From the NCBI RefSeq assembly GCF_000427665.1, contig NZ_KE386572.1, positions 434,001-498,000 on the forward strand: 64,000 nt of DNA. Direction: 5' to 3'. Shown here one piece after another: positions 10,505 through 56,379 of this stretch; the first letter of the stretch is position 1, and each line of letters opens with the position of its first letter. Made by a program: the position numbers and the translations under genes. This DNA is from Geminicoccus roseus DSM 18922 (GTDB lineage Bacteria; Pseudomonadota; Alphaproteobacteria; Geminicoccales; Geminicoccaceae). A model generated the notes under the pieces. The model made no database searches, was not told where the DNA came from, and was given only the letters and a program-made list of their open reading frames with translations.

Positions 10505-11427
10505 CCCTGCTTGCGGAGTTTCGGGTCGAACTGCTCGCGCACCCCGTCGCCGACCACGCTCAGCGCGATCAGCAGGATCGCCAGGGCCGAGCCGGGCACG
10601 CCAGCGATCCAGGGGGCGAAGCTCACGAAGCTGCGCCCCTCGGCGATCATCAGCCCCCAGTCGGGCGTGGGCGGCGCCACGCCGATGCCCAGGAAGGACA
10701 GCCCCGACGACACCAGGATCGCGTAGCTGATCCGGATGGTCGCCTGGACCGCCAGCGGGAACACCACGTTCGGCAGGATGTGCCGCCAGATCACCGCCAT
10801 CCGCCGCACGCCCATCAGCCCGGCCGCCTCGACGAAGGCCTGGGCCTTCACCTGGAGCACGTCGGCGCGGACCGTGCGCGCGAACGGCCCGATCAGGGCC
10901 ACGCCCACCGCCAGGATCACCTTGTCGACCCCCTGGCCCAGGATCGCGATGAACGCGATCGCCATGATCAGGGAGGGCAGCGCCAGGACCGCATCGATCA
11001 GCCGCATCAGCAGCCATTCGACCGCACCCCCGGAAAGGCCGGCGGCAAGCCCCACCACCAGCCCGCCCCCCGCCCCGATCAGCACCGAGAAGAAGCCGAT
11101 CATCAGCGCGTAGCGGGCGCCGTGGATCGTGCGCGACAGGAGGTCCTGGCCGAAGGAATCGGTGCCCAGCCAATGCGCCGTGTTGGGCGGCGCCATGAAG
11201 TGCATCGGGTCCTGCGCGGTGGGCGGATAGGGCGCCACCCACGGAGCGAACAGGGCGGCCAGCAGGTAGGCGGCCACCACCAGCGCTGCCAGGAGGAAGA
11301 ACGGGTTGTGCCAGGCATGGGCGGCAAGCCCCGCCAGGCGCGAGCGCCTGCCCGGCAGCGGCATTGCGGAAGGAGCCTTGCCCCGCGGGCCGGCGGCCGG
11401 GGAGGCGGAGGTCAGGTTCAGCGCCAT
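10501..11427 (-). CDS. Oligopeptide ABC transporter permease, DppC-like
   Basis: 308-residue inner-membrane protein. A soluble Ser/Pro-rich N-terminus of about 35 residues leads into helix 1, then the conserved HWLGTDSFGQDLLSR segment of DppC/OppC permeases at about 85-100. The cytoplasmic coupling motif is around QAFVEAAGLMGVRRMAVIW. Five or six helices are visible. The start overlaps the stop of the DppB-like gene by one base (TGATG). It pairs with the permease at 11427-12374. Confidence 0.92.
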   Translation of the reverse strand: MALNLTSASPAAGPRGKAPSAMPLPGRRSRLAGLAAHAWHNPFFLLAALVVAAYLLAALFAPWVAPYPPTAQDPMHFMAPPNTAHWLGTDSFGQDLLSRTIHGARYALMIGFFSVLIGAGGGLVVGLAAGLSGGAVEWLLMRLIDAVLALPSLIMAIAFIAILGQGVDKVILAVGVALIGPFARTVRADVLQVKAQAFVEAAGLMGVRRMAVIWRHILPNVVFPLAVQATIRISYAILVSSGLSFLGIGVAPPTPDWGLMIAEGRSFVSFAPWIAGVPGSALAILLIALSVVGDGVREQFDPKLRKQG

Positions 11428-12374
11428 CAGCGGGGCCTCAGCCTCGGATCGAGATAGGGATAGGCCAGGTCCACCAGCAGGTTGGTCACCACGAACAGGC
11501 AGGCGGTCATCATCACGCCTGCCTGCACCACGCCGTACTCGCGGTTCAGCACGGCGCTGGTCAGCATCTGGCCGATGCCCGGCAGGGAGTACACCGTCTC
11601 GGTCAGGACCGCGCCCTGCAGGAGGGCTCCCAGCTGCAGGCCCAGGATGGTGACCAGCGGCATCAGCACGTTGCGCAGGCCATGGACCCAGACCACCCGC
11701 CAGGAGGGCTCGCCGCGGGCGCGCGCCGCGGCGATGTAGGGCTGCTCCAGCACCTCGATCAGGTTGGCGCGCACCAGCCGCACGATCATCGCCATGAAAT
11801 AGACGCTGAGCGTGACCGCCGGCAGGGTCATGTGGACGATGCCCTGCCAGAGGTCCTCCCAGGGGGCGACGAACCCCATGGTCGGGAACAGGCCGAGCGT
11901 CACCCCGAAGAACCAGATCAGCAGGATGCCCAGGTAAAAGCTGGGGAACGAGGTGGCGGTCAGGGAGAACACCGCGGACAGCGCGTCCCACACGCCGTCC
12001 TTGCGGGTCGCCGAAAGGACGCCCAGCGGCACCCCCACCAGGATCGCCAGCACCAGGGCGGAGGCCGCCAGCGTCAGCGTGACCGGCAGCGCCTCCAGGA
12101 AGGCGTACTGGAAGATCGGGACCCGCCCGATATAGGAGATCCCCCAGTCGCCCTGCACGAAGTCGCCGAGCCAGCGGCCGTACTGCTCCAGGACCGGCCG
12201 GTCGAGGCCGAGCTCGCGGCTGAGCGAGACATGCGCCTCCGGGGAGTACTCGCTGCCCAGCATGATCTCCACCGGGTCGCCCGGCGCCAGCTTCAGAAGA
12301 CCGAAGCTGGCGGCCGAGACGATCAGGAGCACCATCAGGGTCTGGCCGACCCTGGCGATGGCGGCCCAGGCCAT
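11427..12374 (-). CDS. Oligopeptide ABC transporter permease, DppB-like
   Basis: 315-residue inner-membrane protein. Its N-terminal helix is followed by the DppB-family APGDPVEIMLG motif and the LGLDRPVLEQYGRWL segment; near residues 200-225 is the coupling motif (EVLEQPYIAAARARGEPSWR), and near the C-terminus YSLPGIGQMLTSAV. TGATG overlaps join it to the binding-protein gene upstream and the DppC-like gene downstream, so the order on the minus strand is binding protein, DppB, DppC, DppD, DppF, ggt. Confidence 0.93.
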   Translation of the reverse strand: MAWAAIARVGQTLMVLLIVSAASFGLLKLAPGDPVEIMLGSEYSPEAHVSLSRELGLDRPVLEQYGRWLGDFVQGDWGISYIGRVPIFQYAFLEALPVTLTLAASALVLAILVGVPLGVLSATRKDGVWDALSAVFSLTATSFPSFYLGILLIWFFGVTLGLFPTMGFVAPWEDLWQGIVHMTLPAVTLSVYFMAMIVRLVRANLIEVLEQPYIAAARARGEPSWRVVWVHGLRNVLMPLVTILGLQLGALLQGAVLTETVYSLPGIGQMLTSAVLNREYGVVQAGVMMTACLFVVTNLLVDLAYPYLDPRLRPR

Positions 12375-36946: not shown

Positions 36947-37705
36947 ATGACGGAACCAGCGCAGGGTATCTTGGGGGCGGGCACCGCCAGCTACGACCTG
37001 TCAGGACGGGTCGCCGTGGTGACCGGCGGCTCCCGCGGGATCGGCGCCGCCATCGCGGCGGCCCTGCGCACCGCCGGCGCCGTCGTCACCGTCTGGGACC
37101 GCGACCCGCTGCCGGAGCAGGCGGACCACGCCATCGCGGTCGACGTCACCGACAGGGCCTCCCTGGACGCCGCGATGCAGGCGACGCTCGGCCGCCACGG
37201 TCGCCTGGACATCCTGGTCAACAATGCCGGCTTCGCCGGCCCGGCCATGCCGCTGGTCGACTACCCGCACGAGCAGTGGCGCCGGATCGTCGACGTCAAC
37301 CTGATCGGCACCTACCTCGCCTGCCAGGTGGCGGTGCCGGCCCTGGTCGCGAACGGCTGGGGCCGGGTCGTGAACATCGCCTCGCTCGCCGGCAAGGAAG
37401 GCACGCCCAACGCCAGCGCCTACAGCGCCGCCAAGGCCGGGGTCCTGGCGCTCACCAAGTCGCTGGGCAAGGAACTGGCCGGCAGCGGCGTGCTGGTCAA
37501 CGCCATCGCCCCGGCGGCGGTGCGCACCACGCTGCTGGAGCAGATGAGCCCGCAGCACGTCCAGATCATGATCGACAAGAGCCCGCTCAAGCGCCTGGGC
37601 GAGCCGGAGGAGGTGGCGGAGCTGGCCATGTGGCTGTGCTCGGCCAGCTGCAGCTTCAACACCGGCGCGGTGTTCGACCTGTCCGGCGGACGCGCCACCT
37701 ACTGA
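36947..37705 (+). CDS. Short-chain dehydrogenase/reductase
   Basis: 252 residues. NAD(P)-binding TGGSRGIG near residues 26-33, NNAG in LDILVNNAGFAG, catalytic Ser in NIASLAGKEG, and YSAAK for the Tyr/Lys pair. The C-terminus FDLSGGRATY closely follows classical SDRs of the 3-oxoacyl reductase/glucose dehydrogenase type, here with an acidic residue after the second strand (VTVWDRD) favouring NAD. The substrate is unknown. It lies near the polyol operon, so a polyol oxidation role is possible. Confidence 0.88.
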   Translation: MTEPAQGILGAGTASYDLSGRVAVVTGGSRGIGAAIAAALRTAGAVVTVWDRDPLPEQADHAIAVDVTDRASLDAAMQATLGRHGRLDILVNNAGFAGPAMPLVDYPHEQWRRIVDVNLIGTYLACQVAVPALVANGWGRVVNIASLAGKEGTPNASAYSAAKAGVLALTKSLGKELAGSGVLVNAIAPAAVRTTLLEQMSPQHVQIMIDKSPLKRLGEPEEVAELAMWLCSASCSFNTGAVFDLSGGRATY

Positions 37706-37732: not shown

Positions 37733-37768
37733 CCTGGGATACTGAACTTTGTGGTTATGTATCCCAGG
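37733..37768 (+). promoter_or_regulatory. 10-bp inverted repeat over the promoter/ribosome site of SRPBCC gene
   Basis: Arms CCTGGGATAC (37733-37742) and GTATCCCAGG (37759-37768) flank a 16-base AT-rich spacer, ending 11 bases before the SRPBCC start. A promoter-like pair overlaps it: TTGCCT at 37730 and GGTTAT at 37753 with 17 bases between. The right arm also overlaps the AGGAAGG ribosome site. It could be an operator or an mRNA hairpin. Confidence 0.5.
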
Positions 37769-37779
37769 AAGGCTTCCCG

Positions 37780-38268
37780 ATGAGCAGCACGCCCGCCGCC
37801 GACCGCCGCCTGATCGCCGGAACCCCGTCGGACCGGGAGATCCTGATCCGCCGGGTGTTCGCCGCACCGCCCGAGCGGGTCTATGATGCCCTGCTCACGC
37901 CCGAGCTCGTGCGGCGCTGGCTCCTGGGCCCGCCCGGCGGCTCGATGCCGGTCTGCGAGATCGACCCGCGCGAGGGCGGCAGCTACCGCTATGTCTGGCG
38001 CAACCAGGACGGCAGCGAGATGAGCGTGGCCGGCACCTTCCGCGAGCTGGACCGGCCCAGGCGGGTGGTCCACACCGAGCGGTTCGACCCGCCCTGGTAT
38101 CCAGGCGATGCGCTGGTGACCACGGAGCTGACCGCAACGGACGGCGGCACCCTGATGACCGTCACCGTGCGCTACGACACGCAGGAAGCCCGCGACCAGG
38201 TCCTGGCCTCGCCCATGGAGCAGGGCCTGGGCGCCAGCTACGACCGGCTGGACGCCCTGCTGGCCTGA
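37780..38268 (+). CDS. SRPBCC/AHSA1-family protein
   Basis: 162 residues. The START-like fold signature EILIRRVFAAPPERVYDALL at about 20-39 is followed by RRWLLGPPG and the C-terminal amphipathic helix (GLGASYDRLDALL). This group (activator of Hsp90 ATPase homologue 1-like) binds hydrophobic ligands, but specific roles are mostly unknown. It has its own promoter with a 10-bp inverted repeat. A related SRPBCC gene with an ArsR partner is at 39280. Confidence 0.85.
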   Translation: MSSTPAADRRLIAGTPSDREILIRRVFAAPPERVYDALLTPELVRRWLLGPPGGSMPVCEIDPREGGSYRYVWRNQDGSEMSVAGTFRELDRPRRVVHTERFDPPWYPGDALVTTELTATDGGTLMTVTVRYDTQEARDQVLASPMEQGLGASYDRLDALLA

Positions 38269-54403: not shown

Positions 54404-55513
54404 TCAGGCCTGCATCGCGGCCTTGGCGCGGACCGCCCGCACCCGGCTCTGGTCCAGCATCCAGGCCAGCCGGTCGAACAGGACGATGCCCAGCAGGATG
54501 AACGCCAGGTCGAACCCGGCATTGGTGTTCCAGGAGCGCATCGCGATCTGGCCGATCACGGTCAGGATGCAGCCGGCGGCGAACACCGCCAGGCCATGGC
54601 GGCCCATCCGCGCCAGCGGCGCATAGACGGCTGTACCGCGCAGCCGCTCGGCGACCCGGCCCAGGTAGAGGAGGTAGGCCAGCGCCAGGAAGGCCAGCAG
54701 GCGGACGATGCCCAGATCGGTCTTGTACTTGAACGGGTCCAGCCAGGTCATCGAGGCCAGCAGGCCCGGCCGGGCGCCAAACAGGTCGGACACCAGCAGC
54801 GCCCCCAGGAGGGTCGCGGCCAGCGCCGACCAGCCCAGGGCCTGGCCCTGCGGCACCGGCTTGCCGGTACGGATCAGGTAGCCGGCGGCGATGCCGATCG
54901 CGAACAGGAACTGCCAGGCCAGCGGGTTGAAGAACCAGACGCCCTCCACCGGCCAGGTCGGCAGGTTCACCCCGCCGGCAGCCCCCAGCAGGTAGACGGC
55001 GCCGGACACGGCCAGCATCGCGGGCAGCGAGCGGACCGCCAGCCAGAGCAGCACCGGCGCCCACAGCAGCAGCACGAAATAGAGCGGCAGGATGTTGAAA
55101 TAGCCCAGCTGGTGGCCCAGCCCCAGCACGCCCAGCACGCCCTGGACCGGCTCCGCGACCAGCAGGTCGCGGCCATGCTCGGCCAGAAAGCCGCTCTGCT
55201 CGATCAGGCGGTCGGCCAGGGCGAACAGGAGGAAGCCCGCGAGCGTCAGGCCCAGATGATAGAGGTAGAGCAGCCGCGCCCGCCTACCCAGCCCGCCCAC
55301 CATGCCGCGCAGATCGCCGCGCAGGGTCCGCCCGGCATAGGCCAGCGCCACCGCGACCCCGGACAGGAACACGAACGCCTCGGCCGAATCGGAGAAGCCG
55401 TAATTGCGCGGCGTCCAGGCCTCGAAATAATTGCCAGGCAGGTGGTTGACGAAAATGACGATCAGCACGAGGCCGCGCCAAAAATCGACCCCGTCGATGC
55501 GCTGGTTGTTCAT
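54404..55513 (-). CDS. OpgC-like membrane acyltransferase
   Basis: 369 residues with about ten hydrophobic helices. The N-terminal IDGVDFWRGLVLIVIFVNHLPG contains the acyltransferase-type motif with the conserved His, and FLSGVAVALAYAGR and FVFLSG follow, as in OpgC, which adds succinyl groups to periplasmic glucans. The chosen start at 55513 leaves eight residues before the DFWRG motif, the usual spacing; an ATG at 55549 would add 12 residues. The glucan synthesis genes opgG/opgH are not in the window. The 5' leader contains the structured element at 55540-55656. Confidence 0.82.
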   Translation of the reverse strand: MNNQRIDGVDFWRGLVLIVIFVNHLPGNYFEAWTPRNYGFSDSAEAFVFLSGVAVALAYAGRTLRGDLRGMVGGLGRRARLLYLYHLGLTLAGFLLFALADRLIEQSGFLAEHGRDLLVAEPVQGVLGVLGLGHQLGYFNILPLYFVLLLWAPVLLWLAVRSLPAMLAVSGAVYLLGAAGGVNLPTWPVEGVWFFNPLAWQFLFAIGIAAGYLIRTGKPVPQGQALGWSALAATLLGALLVSDLFGARPGLLASMTWLDPFKYKTDLGIVRLLAFLALAYLLYLGRVAERLRGTAVYAPLARMGRHGLAVFAAGCILTVIGQIAMRSWNTNAGFDLAFILLGIVLFDRLAWMLDQSRVRAVRAKAAMQA

Positions 55514-55539
55514 GGACTCGGGCGTTTCTCTATCAAGTT

Positions 55540-55656
55540 GCAAAAGCATCGAGCCGGATCATGACAATCCGGTGCTTTCCGGACGACAACAGAACTGATC
55601 CGGTTCTTGCCCCATCCGGCGTTCTACGGCCGACCAGGGGGCAACGATGCTTTTGC
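55540..55656. other. Structured three-way-junction element of nested inverted repeats
   Basis: An outer 12-bp stem (55540-55551 with 55645-55656) encloses two side helices that abut it: helix A of 10 bp (55552-55561 with 55596-55605) and helix B of 7 bp (55607-55613 with 55638-55644). Only base 55606 is unpaired at the junction. Each helix carries a small inner hairpin (55568-55572/55579-55583 and 55617-55620/55629-55632). One pair (55553-55604) is G-U on the plus strand and would be C-A on the minus, hinting at a plus-strand RNA. It lies in the 206-base gap between the starts of opgC-like and the end of bluB and matches no gene. It might be a small RNA, a leader structure or a remnant element. 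Confidence 0.6.
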
Positions 55657-55719
55657 CAGGGGGTGGCCGGGAAGTGCAAGCGCCAAGCACGCAGGACGCG
55701 CAGGCGTGAACGGATCTGG

Positions 55720-56379
55720 TCAGCGCTCCGACACGAACAGGGTCCAGTCCAGCCGCGCCTGCCAGCCCTGCCGCGCCAGTTCCGGCACGTCGTCCTGCGC
55801 CTGCGGGTAGCCCACGCAGAGCAGGCCGACCAGCCGCCAGGACGGCTCCACCCGCAGCAGCGCCGCCACCGTCGCCGGGTCCAGGATCGACACCCAGCCG
55901 ATCCCGATCCCGCGCGCCCGGGCCGCCAGCCACAACGTGTGGATCGCCAGCACGGTGGAATAGCACAGGGTCTCGGGCATGGTCCGCCGGCCGAGGCCCC
56001 GGCCGGCCTCGGGATGCTCGTCGGCGAACACCGCCAGCAGTTCCGGCGCCTCGCGCAGCCCGTGCAGCTTCAGGGCGGCGTAGGCGGCCGCCGCCTCGTC
56101 GTCATAGGCGGCGGCCGCCAGCTGGTTCTCCAGGTCGACATGGCGGGCCAGGCTCGCGCGCAGCTCGGCCGAGCGCACCCGCACGAACCGCCAGGGCTGC
56201 GCGTTGCCGACCGAGGGGGCCAGGCACGCCAGGCGCAGCAGGTCCAGCATGTCCGCCTCGGCCACCGGGTCGGTGCGGAACCGGCGCACGTCGCGCCGCC
56301 AGGCCAGCAGCTCCTCCAGTTCCTGCCGGAACGCTTCGCCGAATGCCGGCGGGTCCTTCCTGCCATCCGCCTGTGTCAT
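55720..56379 (-). CDS. bluB: 5,6-dimethylbenzimidazole synthase
   Basis: 219 residues of the nitroreductase-like fold. RRDVRRFRTDP near 28-38, then APSVGNAQPWRFVRV and RTMPETLCYSTVLAIHTLWLAAR with GIGIGWVSILDP, are the BluB pattern. The enzyme fragments reduced FMN with O2 to make dimethylbenzimidazole, the lower ligand of vitamin B12. The ATG at 56379 has GGAAGG upstream; an earlier in-frame start at 56418 lacks one. No other cobalamin gene and no cobalamin riboswitch is seen in the window. Confidence 0.93.
   Translation of the reverse strand: MTQADGRKDPPAFGEAFRQELEELLAWRRDVRRFRTDPVAEADMLDLLRLACLAPSVGNAQPWRFVRVRSAELRASLARHVDLENQLAAAAYDDEAAAAYAALKLHGLREAPELLAVFADEHPEAGRGLGRRTMPETLCYSTVLAIHTLWLAARARGIGIGWVSILDPATVAALLRVEPSWRLVGLLCVGYPQAQDDVPELARQGWQARLDWTLFVSER

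Follow-up and report, generated by a model that had tools for sequence, protein, structure and literature searches.

A single-copy, strongly folding segment in the bluB–opgC spacer of Geminicoccus roseus

Strong inverted repeats are common in bacterial spacers, and the question raised by one such spacer in the marine bacterium Geminicoccus roseus DSM 18922 is whether the 117 bp palindromic segment that it contains belongs to a known or new family of RNAs or repeats, or is peculiar to this species. A first-pass annotation of the locus described a 12 bp outer stem holding helices of 10 and 7 bp, with one unpaired base at the junction and an inner hairpin in each helix, and a base-by-base check reproduced this geometry in every part (Table 1). 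The segment was studied within a window of 64 000 nt (contig C5, positions 434001–498000), from a genome of 5,698,370 bases in 5 contigs. Taken together, the results make the finding ordinary to mildly curious, and the segment gives the impression of an oddity of this one species, not of a member of a known or new RNA family.

The fold and its genomic setting

Table 1. Positions within the window of the folded segment, its helices and the neighbouring genes
Feature	Start	End	Strand	Basis
Whole folded segment (three-way junction)	55540	55656	.	Folding energies, shuffles, base-by-base check
Outer helix, left arm (12 bp)	55540	55551	+	Base-by-base check
Outer helix, right arm (12 bp)	55645	55656	+	Base-by-base check
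Helix A, left arm (10 bp)	55552	55561	+	Base-by-base check
Helix A, right arm	55596	55605	+	Base-by-base check
Inner hairpin of helix A (5 bp; 55568–55572/55579–55583)	55568	55583	+	Base-by-base check
Helix B, left arm (7 bp)	55607	55613	+	Base-by-base check
Helix B, right arm	55638	55644	+	Base-by-base check
Inner hairpin of helix B (4 bp; 55617–55620/55629–55632)	55617	55632	+	Base-by-base check
bluB (5,6-dimethylbenzimidazole synthase), upstream neighbour	55720	56379	-	TIGR02476, 253 bits (cut-off 150)
opgC-like gene, downstream neighbour	54404	55513	-	PF10129, E 3.7e-84

Pairing was perfect in the outer helix and in helix B, and helix A contained a single G–T (G–U) pair at its second position, which becomes a C–A mismatch when read from the minus strand, where the helix nevertheless formed with a mean pair probability of 0.83–0.84. 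C55606 is the sole unpaired base of the junction when all 12 outer pairs form, and in the MFE structure G55551 pairs with C55606 rather than with its outer partner. The three helices comprise 58 of the 117 bases, a higher count than the 'about 50' paired bases first given. The five helices did not depend upon their context, with mean pair probabilities of 0.82–0.99 when 0 to 400 flanking bases were added per side. The G+C content of the segment (58.1 %), earlier described as lower than that of its flanks, is lower than on the bluB side (69.8 %) but higher than on the opgC side (54.0 %).

The segment was predicted to fold at −58.6 kcal/mol on the plus strand (z −6.94) and at −56.8 kcal/mol on the minus strand (z −5.30), and on each strand the observed energy was reached by none of 5000 dinucleotide-preserving shuffles. 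An energy like that of shuffled sequence had been named beforehand as a result that would speak against the structure; since the energy lies far below that of the shuffles on both strands, the structure stands and the fold is a real property of the sequence, of a size that makes pure chance unlikely. A scan of the window, in which 713 of 1597 planned positions were scored in random order with 30 shuffles each, placed the segment as the most extreme position on the plus strand (z −8.1; next −5.3) and as the second on the minus strand (z −4.3; the first reached −6.2). A simpler, GC-adjusted scan covered 3195 windows and ranked the segment 4th on the plus strand and 7th on the minus strand, so that it is extreme, yet has peers.

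Two other places in the window also stood out in the scan. Window position 37660 (z −5.3 on the plus strand) lies by a strong imperfect palindrome at 37733–37768, CCTGGGATAC...GTATCCCAGG, with arms of 10 bp. This palindrome shortly precedes an ATG at 37780 on the plus strand and could be an operator or a leader hairpin. The top structured minus-strand position among the 713 scored, at 11440–11600 (z −6.2 at 11460), is probably coding sequence because it falls inside a minus-strand open frame (11427–12374).

The two neighbouring genes, the vitamin B12-related bluB and the sugar-modifying opgC, are both read from the minus strand in tandem, bluB first, and are separated by a 206 bp spacer; the bluB start codon at 56379 is our own choice and that of opgC was picked by comparison with Geminicoccus harenae. 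The segment stops 26 nt short of the opgC start codon and contains neither that codon nor those 26 nt, part of which, in the predicted fold of 55455–55722, pairs with the opgC start separately from the three-way junction. Seven short open frames were found on the minus strand of the spacer, one of which (9 codons, 55562–55533) overlaps the outer arm. An intrinsic terminator is a G+C-rich hairpin followed by a U-run; the spacer contained no terminator-like hairpin, the sole terminator-like site in 55300–55900 sitting within opgC, and an intrinsic terminator was rejected on this ground. A consensus scan of the same interval found no sigma-70-like promoter, which is weak evidence in this lineage. 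Given the order of bluB and opgC on the minus strand, a read-through minus transcript would be the simplest RNA to contain the segment, and the lack of promoter and terminator hits in the spacer agrees with read-through as far as consensus scans, weak in this lineage, can indicate. The first-pass annotation favoured a plus-strand RNA on account of the sole wobble pair. That pair is indeed G–U on the plus strand, but both flanking genes are on the minus strand and helix A forms there, so that a minus-strand RNA is at least as likely as a plus-strand one.

The fold is less conspicuous in a wider frame, as the 205 nt upstream of opgC taken as a whole had a z of only −1.80 in the sense and −1.83 in the antisense direction. 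For comparison we used opgC-like loci from 80 of 408 relatives, 79 of them with usable upstream sequence (L039 was without upstream DNA). Values as low or lower were seen at 5 of the 79 other loci in the sense direction and at 4 of the 79 in the antisense direction, and the mean sense z of these upstream regions was −0.3.

Copies, homologues and the sister species

The segment is present as a single copy in its own genome. Of 26 blastn matches there at E≤10, one was the full copy and the other 25 were short, including one at C5:5196241 that appeared by eye to be coding sequence of a Crp/Fnr-type regulator. A covariance model, made from the single sequence entered twice and given a structure of 38 pairs, recovered the segment itself and one further match (E 6.15), where nothing alike was seen by eye, and a pattern of the two arms with 80–100 bases between them returned the segment only. 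The model also scored the segment's own minus strand (19.5 bits, E 0.018), as is to be expected when the query is an inverted repeat.

Beyond this genome, a DNA search of 60 genomes (its own included) gave a match at E≤1 in 45, none of which, besides the segment, exceeded 45 nt or 34.6 bits, the best being 21–31 nt long. The covariance model matched 2 of 31 genomes of the family at E≤1, namely its own and G014 (20.2 bits, E 0.55), and 1 of 142 genomes of the class at E≤0.1 with stricter filters, again its own; the arm pattern with 80–110 bases between was likewise found in 1 of 289 class genomes, as itself. Plasmids and phages gave no match by distant blastn, nor did viral contigs with one exact arm pattern. 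At gathering scores, Rfam had no match in the window or at the G. harenae locus (L038). At E≤10 it had four in 55400–55800, all far under their gathering scores, and only one of these overlapped the segment (rydB, minus strand, 12.5 bits vs 50, E 7.4); a known Rfam family was therefore rejected. The other matches in these searches appear to be at chance level only. Homologues with compensatory changes, by which the proposal of a structured RNA was to be judged, were sought in the family, in the class samples and at the G. harenae locus, and none was found beyond chance level. These searches thus yield no covariation evidence and lend no support to a conserved structured RNA.

In Microvirga, short palindromes AGCATCGG...CCGATGCT were observed near opgC at two loci (L056, 4138–4186; L063, 969–1016), and after each comes another palindrome, whose arms are GCGCATC and GATGCGC; these may form a Microvirga repeat family. 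The script for their core, AGCATCG...CGATGCT, also returned L111 and L135, and the pattern AAAGCATCG-N18to48-CGATGCTTT was found in none of 115 class genomes. The Microvirga palindromes were rejected as kin of the segment, as their inner sequences differ and their loops are short.

The closest comparison was offered by G. harenae, in which a bluB-like frame (identified by eye) is followed by opgC (identified by search, 75 % identity) across a spacer of 191 bp. The last 117 nt of bluB and the first 117 nt of opgC aligned between the two species with scores of 87 and 175, set against about 18 for shuffled spacers. The spacers themselves, aligned locally over 204 of the 206 bases of G. roseus, scored 18 (shuffle mean 17.8; reached by 251 of 500 shuffles), and the segment alone scored 14 (reached by 472 of 500). 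Common to both spacers was a short GRGAAACGCCC just before the opgC start codon. The G. harenae spacer folded as shuffled sequence does (z +0.19 and +0.09), and the covariance model gave no match at E≤10 in 11 sources, these being the G. harenae locus, L119 and 9 of the 80 opgC-like loci. G. harenae thus keeps the gene order, but both the sequence and the fold of the segment are missing from its spacer, which argues that there is no conserved need for the fold. Geminicoccus flavidas (L039, L119) is uninformative on the spacer since its contig breaks off only a few bases from where opgC starts, and a search for bluB in genome G001 gave no match at E≤0.001.

Possible roles and origins

We infer transcription of the segment, and every effect ascribed to it, from this setting and from the predicted fold. 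Our preferred reading, held tentatively and at less than even likelihood, is that the segment is a lineage-specific structured intercistronic spacer, perhaps stabilizing or insulating the bluB–opgC mRNA. The RNA made by minus-strand transcription through bluB into opgC would fold here, whatever flanks it, into a compact three-way junction whose end lies 26 nt ahead of the opgC start codon. By comparison with REPs and other intercistronic hairpins, the fold might shield the 3′ end of bluB from 3′-to-5′ decay, and it could insulate bluB from opgC mechanically, without the sensing of a ligand; on this analogy, a passive effect of this sort (decay barrier, insulation) would be the likeliest effect of the fold. 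The reading is supported by a folding energy far below that of shuffles on both strands, by helices that persist with up to 400 flanking bases per side and by the codirectional genes, whose order is shared with G. harenae. Against it stand the lack of the fold in G. harenae, the modest z over 205 nt and a folding energy that is slightly worse on the minus than on the plus strand.

A nearly as likely, though still doubtful, reading, which accounts for the folding on both strands and the absence from G. harenae about equally well, is that the segment is the lone remnant of a small, palindromic MITE-like or REP-like mobile element, its arms being former terminal inverted repeats; folding on both strands would then follow from its being a DNA element, and it may have no present function. 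The perfect 12 bp arms had already raised a mobile element as an alternative in the first-pass annotation, and sharp boundaries, folding on both strands and absence from the spacer of the sister species are all compatible with it, but beyond the inverted arms the tested marks of mobility were lacking. No second copy turned up in the genome, nor did the plasmids, phages and viral contigs yield one under the searches given above. The arm, with ≤1 mismatch, occurred 17 times in the genome including the segment's own two, and the 15 others compare with 12 for a reversed control. A third exact copy of the arm, at C5:2584159–2584170 (L153, 1501–1512), is unpaired and 13 nt upstream of an ATG; it is oriented towards that ATG as the opgC-proximal arm, 26 nt from its start codon, is towards opgC, and the list of arm matches has no second arm nearby. 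As first noted, no target duplication is visible, since no word longer than 4 letters is common to the two 30-base flanks. Of the two copies of an 8-base direct repeat, CCAGGGGG, one sits within the segment and the other straddles its right edge, so that the repeat does not flank it, and internal direct repeats were within chance (74 of 1000 shuffles reached the observed value). The near-equal length of the two Geminicoccus spacers indicates that this was not a clean insertion. One Y1_Tnp (PF01797) gene elsewhere in the genome would suit the relic, but it was not supported as mobilizer, as exact matches reported between the segment and the locus of that gene reached 10 bases at most. That the palindrome arose by chance in a spacer free of constraint, or that the structure works at the DNA level (as a cruciform or a protein-binding site), appears unlikely: the segment is unconserved, present once and picked by eye, and a genome of ~5.7 Mb gives room for rare structures, yet no shuffle on either strand reached its energy and it held the top plus-strand score among the positions scanned.

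The remaining readings give the segment a regulatory part. A small RNA transcribed from the plus strand, antisense to the bluB–opgC spacer, seems improbable, although both the best energy and z and the lone G–U wobble are found on that strand; no plus-strand promoter-like (sigma-70 consensus only) or terminator-like site was seen in 55300–55900, Rfam gave only its four far-below-threshold matches and homologues were at chance level. We regard as more improbable still a regulatory leader of opgC on the minus strand, an attenuator or ligand-binding RNA, to which the closeness of the segment to the opgC start codon and the 9-codon frame overlapping the outer arm would be suited. Conservation in G. 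harenae, an Rfam riboswitch and a terminator-like hairpin in the spacer were all lacking, and the regions upstream of opgC at 79 of the 80 loci have little structure on average. It is very improbable that the near gap-free junction is an undescribed, species-restricted cis-regulatory RNA that controls opgC from within the bluB–opgC mRNA; if true, this would perhaps connect the modification of envelope glucans with the part of cobalamin metabolism that involves bluB. Should transcripts and mutants show control of the neighbouring genes, the young, lineage-specific fold would represent a recently arisen regulatory RNA.

Comparison with known palindromic elements

Integron attC sites carry the end boxes RYYYAAC and GTTRRRY, neither of which occurred on either strand of 55530–55670, and an attC site was rejected. 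MITEs have a short non-coding core bounded by terminal inverted repeats, and in this the segment is like them, its terminal repeats being perfect over 12 bp. Unlike them, it is present once and lacks both a target duplication (no common word of ≥5 letters in the 30-base flanks) and arm partners that would mark the ends of a parent transposon (arms with ≤1 mismatch in its own genome). Two of the three marks by which a MITE was judged, target duplication and several copies or a parent, are therefore missing.

REP and BIME palindromes, as described in one account (PMC3733652), are small intergenic palindromes tagged GTAG or CGTC, many of them downstream of genes and plausibly transcribed, for which mRNA stabilization has been hypothesized. 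The segment is an intergenic palindrome as well, but REPs as described there are small (20–40 bp) and of high copy number, whereas it is 117 bp long and single. GTAG and CGTC each occur once in it, on the minus strand and inside rather than at the ends, as single 4-mers are expected to by chance. With one copy by both DNA search and covariance model, and without a GTAG or CGTC end tag, a REP element was rejected.

The methyltransferase-associated intergenic repeats of Caulobacter (CIRs), according to the account cited (PMC2229807), are alphaproteobacterial elements of about 110 bp with long inverted repeats, abundant, conserved between species, GANTC-bearing and folded into two arms. No GANTC occurs in 55540–55656 and no second copy was found, and a CIR element was rejected on these grounds. 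The segment departs from the CIR fold as there described in that its own two ends pair, but it resembles these elements in being alphaproteobacterial, intergenic, of similar length and built of long inverted repeats.
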